From positions 992,001 through 1,056,000 of the forward strand of contig NZ_JAPPRA010000001.1 in NCBI RefSeq assembly GCF_026672375.1: a stretch of DNA of 64,000 nucleotides. The letters run 5' to 3'. The stretch comes from Caulobacter sp. SL161. GTDB taxonomy: Bacteria > Pseudomonadota > Alphaproteobacteria > Caulobacterales > Caulobacteraceae. The notes under the pieces are model-generated. The model was not told where the DNA came from. It ran no database searches and saw only the letters and a program-made list of their open reading frames with translations. Of the stretch, positions 4,230 to 6,858 are shown in pieces (position 1 is the stretch's first letter; each line of letters begins with the position of its first letter). Made by a program: the position numbers and the translations under genes.

Positions 4230-4258
4230 AGAGGGCGGGGCCGTGAGGCTCCGCCTCT
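4230..4258. terminator. Hairpin between convergent ALDH and SIR2 genes
   Basis: An imperfect GC-rich inverted repeat, agagggcggggcc against ggctccgcctct with a gtga loop, lies between the two convergent stops and touches the SIR2 stop codon. No clear T-run follows on either strand. A bidirectional terminator is plausible but unproven. Confidence 0.4.
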
Positions 4259-5258
4259 ATCCAAAGAGAACGTCTTCTCCGTCCGTCCTCATAAATTCTG
4301 ATGCGATCATTTTTCGCCAGAATTGCCTGCTCGCCGTTTCGAAGCGTGCGGCTGGCTGCGTCCACGCTCTCGTCTCAAGGATCGAGCTCGTACCAAATAC
4401 TGGGATGTCTGGGCAATTGCAGTTGTTGCCAAATAGAAGATCAAGATTTCGATTATGGAAGCCAAATCCTAAGAATATCAATCTTCCTGCGTGAAATATG
4501 GTATTGCGGATACGCTGAGCGGCCCCGCTTTCTACCTCTTCTGTAAATGTTTTTATTTGCGTTGCGGCCTTATGAATGTGGTATGGATCTGTTGATCCAT
4601 ACGGAACTGTGAATAATGTTCCGTCCGAGGACAACGGACCCAATCGCCCGTAGGCGTGATGAATTTCCACGTTGTTCAAGGCTGCCAGCGCGACATCCTG
4701 ATGCAGATTGCATGTGTGCATAAAGTTGGCCAAGAGGAATTGCTCTAGGCATCTGTCATAATTGAAGGTCACGAATGCCACGTCGCTAAATGCTTGGAAT
4801 GCGTGGCGACGTTGTACTCCTTGCCCACCTACATTGCGGAAAAGCCAACTCGCCCAACTATCCCTCATAGGGCGGAACGCAGATGCCCATGCCACTTCAT
4901 CGTGAATTGAGTGGCAAAGATTACTGCGAAATTCTGCTGTAAGAAGAGCAGCAGCAATTGCGTGCTTTGCGACGTTGGAAAATTCTGGGAAATCTGACCA
5001 CTCGTCGATTAACTCGTCGATTGATGATTTTGAGTGTAGGCTTTTGCCAATTTGAATCGCGGCGGCCCGGTGTTCCCGATAGAGCCCCGTCCCACGCCTA
5101 AATGCATCTTTGACTAAGCCGTCGCTGTGCATAGATGCGTCAGCAAATTCCTTTATCAGCATATCGTCTATGGTTGCGGCAAGCTCCTCGCCAATAGGCA
5201 TGTTGTTTCCGAAATCTTTCGACGCGCCTGCACCAAGAACGAATACAGTCTTACCCAT
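4257..5258 (-). CDS. Stand-alone SIR2-like domain protein, probable NADase
   Basis: A 333-residue protein with the SIR2-like (SIR2_2) fold over most of its length. Visible are an N-terminal nucleotide-binding motif VFVLGAGASKDFG, FVTFNYDRCLEQFL in the place of the sirtuin TxNxD motif, a conserved His in HAYGRLG, and a late Rossmann strand LIFLGFGFHNRNLDLL. Proteins of this class occur in several anti-phage systems where they destroy NAD, but here there is no Argonaute, HerA, TIR-sensor or other partner gene next to it. The gene is clearly lower in GC than its neighbours and uses AT-rich codons, so it looks recently acquired. It is flanked by palindromic repeats. Defence activity is inference; the domain assignment is well supported. 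Confidence 0.78.
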   Translation of the reverse strand: MGKTVFVLGAGASKDFGNNMPIGEELAATIDDMLIKEFADASMHSDGLVKDAFRRGTGLYREHRAAAIQIGKSLHSKSSIDELIDEWSDFPEFSNVAKHAIAAALLTAEFRSNLCHSIHDEVAWASAFRPMRDSWASWLFRNVGGQGVQRRHAFQAFSDVAFVTFNYDRCLEQFLLANFMHTCNLHQDVALAALNNVEIHHAYGRLGPLSSDGTLFTVPYGSTDPYHIHKAATQIKTFTEEVESGAAQRIRNTIFHAGRLIFLGFGFHNRNLDLLFGNNCNCPDIPVFGTSSILETRAWTQPAARFETASRQFWRKMIASEFMRTDGEDVLFG

Positions 5259-5349: not shown

Positions 5350-5386
5350 CCCCCTCTCCCATGGGGAGGGGGTCGGGGAGAGGGGG
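5350..5386. repeat. GC-rich intergenic palindrome
   Basis: ccccctctccc at 5350-5360 is the exact reverse complement of gggagaggggg at 5376-5386, with an internal cccat/ggggaggg element between them. It is the first of several CTCTCCC/GGGAGAG palindromes around the DUF559 gene; another is at 5491-5511 (ccctctccc gcc gggagaggg). Confidence 0.75.
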
Positions 5387-5424
5387 TAAGCCGTCCGCCG
5401 GAGCGCCGGCAGGGCGGCGGCTTT

Positions 5425-5476
5425 GAAACCCCTCTCCCGACCGCTTCGCGGCCACCCTCTCCCTCTGGGAGAGGGA
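5425..5476. repeat. 52-bp repeat, copy 1, with CTCTCCC palindrome
   Basis: This 52-base block is identical to 5928-5979. It contains gaccgcttcgcggcc and a hairpin, ccctctccc against gggagaggg. The two copies lie on either side of the DUF559 reading frame in the same orientation. The stretch 5259-5576 holds only such repeats and no gene I can support. Confidence 0.85.
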
Positions 5477-5576
5477 ACAGCTTCGCTCCGCCCTCTCCCG
5501 CCGGGAGAGGGATCGAAAAGAGAAATCCCGATTCCTTCTGTTGAATGCGCCCAAGGGTTGAGTCCATTCTTCCGCC

Positions 5577-6002
5577 ATGGACGCCACCGCCACCGCTCGC
5601 CGCCTGCGACAGGCCCAGACCCTGGCCGAAAAGATCCTGTGGGCCCTGGTCCGGGCGCACCGGCTGGGCGGGTTCAAGTTCAGGCGGCAGGTCCCGATCG
5701 GCGGCTATTTCGCCGACTTTGTCTGTGAACAGGGCAGGCTGATCGTCGAGCTGGACGGCGCGGCGCATCAGGGGCGGGAGGACTATGACGCCCGCCGCAC
5801 GCAGGCGCTTGAGCGGTTCGGCTACGCCGTCTTGCGGTTCCCCAACACGCGGGTGCTGGCCGATCCCGGCGGGACGGCGGGACGGCGGACGACATTCTGG
5901 CGGCGCTGCGGGGCGCGCGGCCGGGGTGAAACCCCTCTCCCGACCGCTTCGCGGCCACCCTCTCCCTCTGGGAGAGGGATTGGGCTACCCTCCCGCCCAT
6001 GA
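5577..6002 (+). CDS. DUF559 endonuclease-like protein, C terminus frameshifted
   Basis: Residues 1-100 match the DUF559 family, small Vsr/restriction-endonuclease-fold proteins: RRLRQAQTLAEKILWALVR, FKFRRQVPIGGYFADFVC with the conserved Asp, LIVELDGAAHQ with the Glu/Asp/His cluster, and YAVLRFPNTRVLADPGG. After that the frame departs from the family and runs 40 residues into repeat DNA. An 8-bp tandem duplication at 5869-5884 explains this: with one copy removed the frame continues DDILAALRGARPG and stops at 5927-5929, giving a 114-residue protein of normal length. All putative catalytic residues lie before the break, so the altered product could still be active. Function of the family is not established. 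Confidence 0.72.
   Translation: MDATATARRLRQAQTLAEKILWALVRAHRLGGFKFRRQVPIGGYFADFVCEQGRLIVELDGAAHQGREDYDARRTQALERFGYAVLRFPNTRVLADPGGTAGRRTTFWRRCGARGRGETPLPTASRPPSPSGRGIGLPSRP
5869..5884 (+). repeat. 8-bp tandem duplication causing the DUF559 frameshift
   Basis: gcgggacg occurs twice in direct succession (5869-5876 and 5877-5884). Eight bases shift the frame by two, and deletion of one unit restores the family-typical C terminus. It may be a fixed mutation, a slippage-prone site or a sequencing error. Confidence 0.85.
5928..5979. repeat. 52-bp repeat, copy 2
   Basis: This block is identical over 52 bases to 5425-5476. Its first bases overlap the TGA that would end the unshifted DUF559 frame, so the repeat abuts the gene exactly. 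Confidence 0.85.
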
Positions 6003-6516: not shown

Positions 6517-6858
6517 GCGCTTACGGGGACTGAGTGGCCTCTATCCTCGGAGTTCGCAGAATCGAAGTCAACGAAATCAACTACTTATCACTTTTACGCG
6601 CCAATTTATCCCCGGCCTGAAAACCCGCTCCATACTGAACTCATCCCCGCCGCGGGGGAGGGCGTTTGGATCCGGCCCAATACGGCGGCGGGGCTAGGTT
6701 GAGCGGGGCCGCGTGGTCTCGAAGCGGTTTCGACCGGGGTCTGTTCGTTGGATAGATCCGGGACCTCGGAAGAAGCCGTGGAGAGGCGAGCGCGGAGCGA
6801 CAGGGCGGTGATCGTACAAGCCGCCTATCGTGGATCGTCGGGCTGGACACGGATGTAG

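Follow-up and report, generated by a model that had tools for sequence, protein, structure and literature searches.

Short palindromes are among the commonest repeats of bacterial genomes, and many of them have no known source. A locus in a 4.0-Mb Caulobacter genome, where a gene of the DUF559 family (PF04480) lies among identical repeats and short hairpins, raises the question of whether such palindromes may owe their spread to the gene that they surround. The window, which is the whole 64-kb stretch of DNA analyzed here, covers positions 992001-1056000 of this genome. The initial annotation had likened the arrangement to the link between RAYT transposases and REP palindromes, with an endonuclease-like family as the partner, and had considered it possibly mobile, a reading that is supported by the enrichment and the one-copy site described below.

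Architecture of the DUF559 locus

The DUF559 gene occupies 5577..6002 on the + strand and has 141 codons as read, its frame being shifted from around residue 100 onward by a tandem duplication of 8 bp (GGGACGGC GGGACGGC, about 5868-5890, + strand), which is missing from the relatives L063, L140, and L145. Because the gene is frame-shifted, the window copy has probably decayed. Without the duplication, the frame would end at the TGA (5927-5929 region) that opens the downstream repeat, and the duplication-free copies that L140 and L145 carry at this position do stop there, at the TGA of TGAAACCCCTCTCCC, in agreement with the earlier proposal that the repeat abuts the unshifted stop. In L140 and L145, a different sequence directly precedes the unit. 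A gene with a SIR2_2 domain, a defence-like family, is located at 4257-5258 (- strand), just upstream of the DUF559 locus.

Identical repeats had been noted around the gene, and they are present as described, although their length is 53 bp rather than 52; the upstream copy lies at 5424..5476 and the downstream copy at 5927..5979 (both + strand), with a spacing of 503. The pair does not mark the opposite ends of a single gene unit. Instead, the copy on the upstream side forms the right end of a separate, complete, gene-less REPIN-like element with two terminal palindromes (5352..5475, + strand), situated upstream of the DUF559 gene in the same orientation, while the downstream copy forms the right end of the DUF559 unit itself, opening with the ancestral stop codon and containing the terminal palindrome of that end (5955..5978). 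On the left, an extra palindrome, CCCTCTCCCGCCGGGAGAGGG (5491..5511), which is matched by one in L063, L140, and L145, borders the leader of the gene (5512..5576, + strand), whose AAATCCCGATTCCTTCTGTTG core is conserved in the comparison of units.

The region had also been called dense in CTCTCCC/GGGAGAG palindromes, which is borne out by the fact that the only three exact CTCTCCC(n2-9)GGGAGAG palindromes of the 64-kb window (5457, 5493, and 5960) all lie beside the DUF559 gene; the palindrome loop is three bases, and a fourth palindrome, at 5352-5372, is imperfect. In the genome, matches with at most three mismatches were found at 139 places, compared with 19 for a reversed control, so the repetition is beyond chance; many of the 139 places are 97-113 bp apart, often as inverted pairs. 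This genome has just one further DUF559 gene, L002, and there too palindromes lie on both sides, although their sequence differs (CCTCCCCC-n-GGGGGAGG, combined with an inner hairpin). Positions 6540-6660 of the window contain another repeat of intergenic DNA (GATTTTGTTGACG..AATCCCCGTAAACCGGTTC), which is longer, often adjoins palindrome elements (L007, L011, L013, L033), and is possibly one of the Caulobacter intergenic repeats already described.

The window protein matches PF04480 with an E value of 3.5e-41 (139.9 bits, cut-off 20.6), and an intact relative reaches 154.1 bits. In Pfam scans, the window protein matched DUF559 and MTES_1575 only, with no HuH/Y1 domain (PF01797); neither this protein nor the intact relative matched PF03852 (Vsr), and no transposase of a known class encoded by the unit was found in the domain scans. 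The gene of the window DUF559 clade gave no defence-system match. In an alignment of 25 diverse members, D47, D60, H64, and W22 are invariant, and E58 is present in at least 90%. The closest folds to an AlphaFold model (pLDDT 83.6) are 3HRL, which is N. gonorrhoeae NGO0050 of the same family as YcjD, then I-Bth0305I, whose catalytic domain (Foldseek E 1.4e-4) is the nearest fold outside DUF559, and then E. coli Vsr (structure 1CW0, TM 0.56 to the model). Judged by its acidic residues and modeled fold, DUF559 is predicted to be a PD-(D/E)XK nuclease, the superfamily in which YcjD had been placed by earlier work (PMC1189080).

Association of DUF559 genes with palindromes

DUF559 is present in 56 of 61 Caulobacter genomes, with up to 13 copies. 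The feature scored around these genes was a hairpin whose 5' arm consists entirely of pyrimidines, no more than 300 bp from the gene, and in Caulobacter-centred loci it was found near 34 of 35 DUF559 genes and on both sides of 31. If palindromes filled most intergenic gaps, any gene would look linked to them, and 94 of the 379 other ORFs in the same loci (25%) do have one within this distance, but only 6 of the 379 have one on both sides. A phylum-wide sample of 40 loci was drawn from the stronger DUF559 matches and therefore represents clear DUF559 members; a hairpin lay near 35 of these genes and on both sides of 25, compared with 19 and 0, respectively, of 380 other ORFs in the same loci (Fisher 6e-32 for the genes with a nearby hairpin), and 5 of the 40 had no hairpin within 300 bp. 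Vsr genes, used as a control, showed a pyrimidine-arm hairpin in 0 of 27 cases. The counts for both sides, together with the Vsr control, rule out a coincidence produced by palindrome-rich intergenic DNA, the probability of which we regard as negligible, and the enrichment near DUF559 genes relative to other ORFs, which the initial annotation had put forward as a check, is very strong in the 300-bp range.

The upstream and downstream arms of the same locus were exact matches in 19 of 25 cases, compared with 15% across loci (0 of 10000 permutations). The pattern is also found in plasmid-collection records from Deinococcus, cyanobacteria, and Neisseria, while palindromes are absent around a Thermoactinomyces plasmid DUF559 gene. 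The gene is paired with palindromes in phyla that are only distantly related, even though the palindromes themselves differ in sequence. The link between DUF559 and palindromes is general, and the phenomenon extends far beyond Caulobacter. In many Pseudomonadota, predicted proteins (L110, L113, L114, L116, L117, L125, and others) end with SPxPxxxRGE-like tails, which arise where the reading frame enters the palindromes.

The number of palindromes per genome was assessed by counting CTCTCCC(n2-9)GGGAGAG across 299 genomes. The 80 genomes with clear DUF559 had a median of 14 palindromes, with at least 10 in 49 of them, and the 191 genomes without DUF559 had a median of 0, with at least 10 in 8 (p 2e-30); 7 of the 80 DUF559 genomes hold none by this pattern, which is one pattern only. 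Because the genomes are related, the comparison was also made within genera, and among those holding both DUF559 states the counts were higher with DUF559 in 8, lower in 0, and tied in 3 (p 0.008), so that all 8 informative genera agree. Within Caulobacter, the number of DUF559 copies correlates with that of palindromes (rho 0.40, p 0.0015). DUF559 is absent from five of its genomes, several being incomplete, and these contain 0-15 palindromes against a median of 43.5. The counts were unaffected by whether a genome carried Y1 transposases, to which the RAYTs belong (medians of 0 and 0 without DUF559, and of 14 and 17 with it). Palindrome number thus follows DUF559 and not the RAYT transposase family. 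A RAYT acting as a hidden mover was considered and rejected, as Y1_Tnp occurs in only 16 of 61 Caulobacter genomes and has no effect on the counts.

Gene-bearing units and gene-less elements in Caulobacter

In most Caulobacter copies, the order is terminal palindrome, inner hairpin, leader, gene, inverted inner hairpin, and terminal palindrome, with a total length of ~530 bp, ends of ~62 bp each, and no second gene inside. Units at unrelated intergenic sites are 80-97% identical, and in 292 ordered unit pairs the median offset between the edge of homology and the edge of the palindrome was 0, being at most 5 bp in 90% on the left and 82% on the right. For example, L090 and L091, two copies from Caulobacter sp. 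Root655 that share no flanks, have 97% identity across 514 bp. In Caulobacter, the gene and its palindromes have thus moved together, as a single unit of ~530 bp. Gene-less elements of ~105-135 bp, in which only the two ends are kept, are abundant, and a survey of 1.53 Mb gave 130 palindromes, of which 119 have an extension on one side and one side only, with about five being naked.

These observations bear on the idea that the palindromes serve mainly as terminators, mRNA stabilisers, or regulatory binding sites for the nuclease gene and are spread by recombination only. Hairpins do lie to either side of the gene, in many cases starting at its stop codon; however, most palindrome copies are far from any DUF559 gene, and movement has involved whole units with sharp borders, which makes such a control or protective function very improbable as the main explanation.

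In relatives, the orthologous slot may be filled by a unit, by a gene-less element, by one hairpin, or by other repeats, and in some cases it contains nothing recognisable. The one-copy site that had been sought is represented by the L300 slot (G056), in which a single 21-bp palindrome, CCCTCTCTCTTAGAGAGAGGG, stands in the place that the whole unit occupies in L312 and L313. On Sinorhizobium pSymB, a 126-bp palindrome element shows clean presence/absence between L321 and L328 (S. meliloti USDA1021 and R11), with no target duplication at this slot, where the difference may be a loss. These two clearest pairs could both be losses rather than gains, and target-site duplications were not visible in the slot comparisons, in which the flanks have diverged or the events are possibly losses. 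A 400-kb comparison (G000:C1:850001-1250000 with G041:C1:296001-696000) likewise gave presence/absence differences of elements between intergenic flanks too diverged for junctions; many intergenic gaps of these related Caulobacter genomes differ because palindromic repeats from several unrelated families have been exchanged for one another.

A solo hairpin exactly where relatives carry the unit, the five or so naked palindromes in 1.5 Mb, and the fold of the I-Bth0305I catalytic domain, the closest outside DUF559, are consistent with a free-standing selfish homing gene, in which DUF559 would cut at or near a solo palindrome serving as its target and the unit would be copied by recombination from the filled allele. 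Homing alone reaches only allelic or strongly matching targets, yet the units occupy many unrelated intergenic sites, and one-side-extended hairpins greatly exceed naked ones (119 compared with about 5), so we consider this explanation unlikely.

Proposed role of DUF559 and related systems

DUF559/YcjD genes are probably the gene-bearing members of widespread small REP-like mobile elements, with DUF559 as their mover. A broader proposal, to which we give about an even chance, is that a PD-(D/E)XK nuclease of Vsr/homing type, DUF559/YcjD, mobilises a distinct REP-like class found throughout bacteria, spreading its own unit together with gene-less copies, and that this class evolved independently of RAYT/REP. 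From the associations described above, we infer that the cutting of the ends and the movement of the palindrome elements are due to DUF559. The full Caulobacter element of ~530 bp would consist of a left end of ~62 bp, a short leader, the gene for a putative PD-(D/E)XK nuclease of ~115 residues, and the same end inverted, with gene-less elements keeping only the two ends, as REPINs or MITEs do. DUF559 may recognise the paired hairpin ends, either double-stranded or extruded on the lagging strand, and cut at or next to the terminal palindrome, after which host replication and repair would copy or move the element to another intergenic site. It would also act in trans on gene-less copies, and palindrome number is proposed to follow gene presence for this reason, whereas loss between two terminal palindromes would leave a single hairpin.

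Alternatively, another enzyme might move the elements and DUF559 might be their cargo, serving the cell in a house-keeping function such as mismatch repair of the Vsr type. In C. crescentus, VsrA (CCNA_02930), which contains a DUF559 domain, drives the SOS response in cells without the methyltransferase ScmA, and a role in T:G mismatch repair was proposed by its authors (PMC12907096). Nevertheless, true Vsr genes lack such palindromes, the unit holds no second gene, palindrome number tracks DUF559 and not Y1 transposases, and the same pairing recurs in distant phyla although the palindrome sequences differ. A passenger status is therefore improbable.

Among known systems, REP/REPIN with RAYT (TnpA-REP) is similar to the DUF559 units in having numerous short extragenic palindromes per genome, arranged as inverted pairs, together with one small nuclease gene that is flanked by its own palindromes and whose presence is followed by their copy number. 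The RAYT enzyme belongs to the HuH/Y1 type, whereas DUF559 is a predicted PD-(D/E)XK enzyme whose palindromes are unrelated in number to Y1 genes, and the REP palindromes of RAYT systems are of the GTAG-tagged type, whereas those of DUF559 have pyrimidine arms. As in insertion sequences and their MITEs, gene and terminal inverted repeats move as a unit, with sharp borders at unrelated sites, and gene-less derivatives share the ends; unlike in these, there is no DDE, HuH, or serine transposase, no target-site duplication was seen, and the ends are themselves complete palindromes. Selfish spread is plausible for DUF559 as for EDxHD homing endonucleases such as I-Bth0305I, but the DUF559 units have no intron or intein, occur at many unrelated sites, and possess paired palindromic ends and gene-less copies. 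The Vsr family (PF03852) shares a related nuclease fold, but the DUF559 units are multicopy and mobile. The breadth of the association and the movement of whole units in Caulobacter suggest that DUF559 with its palindromes is a previously unrecognised counterpart of RAYT/REP systems. No paper linking the DUF559/YcjD family to palindromic repeats was found in the open-access literature, a scope outside which preprints and most subscription papers fall, and prior reports are possible.

If the proposal is true, the nuclease fold would be new to this role as far as the literature found goes, and the "domain of unknown function 559" would gain a concrete, testable function. Some Vsr-like repair assignments would also be recast, because DNA-damage effects have already been seen in cells for a DUF559 protein of Caulobacter (PMC12907096). 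If palindromes were uniformly tied to a single nuclease family, represented in E. coli K-12 by ycjD, a large class of them would have a candidate maker, and their spread could be tested.

YcjD and NGO0050 have been described only as predicted nucleases (PMC1189080 and PDB title, respectively), and no repeat link was found in these descriptions, but the ycjD coding region of E. coli extends into a palindrome of the kind described here. The E. coli repeat occurs at a median of 17 places per genome and is found in 5352 of 5426 genomes, while the full ycjD locus is missing from about 2000; strains without ycjD thus also appear to keep the repeats, which counts against dependence on DUF559. The ycjD locus was considered as an empty site and rejected: in the ycjD-less strains examined (among L216 and L217-L222), an RND efflux operon lies next to fabI, a replacement that makes the locus uninformative on target duplications. 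The sapF-ycjD-fabI arrangement is found in about 3333 of the 5426 E. coli genomes, ycjD being polymorphic in this species.
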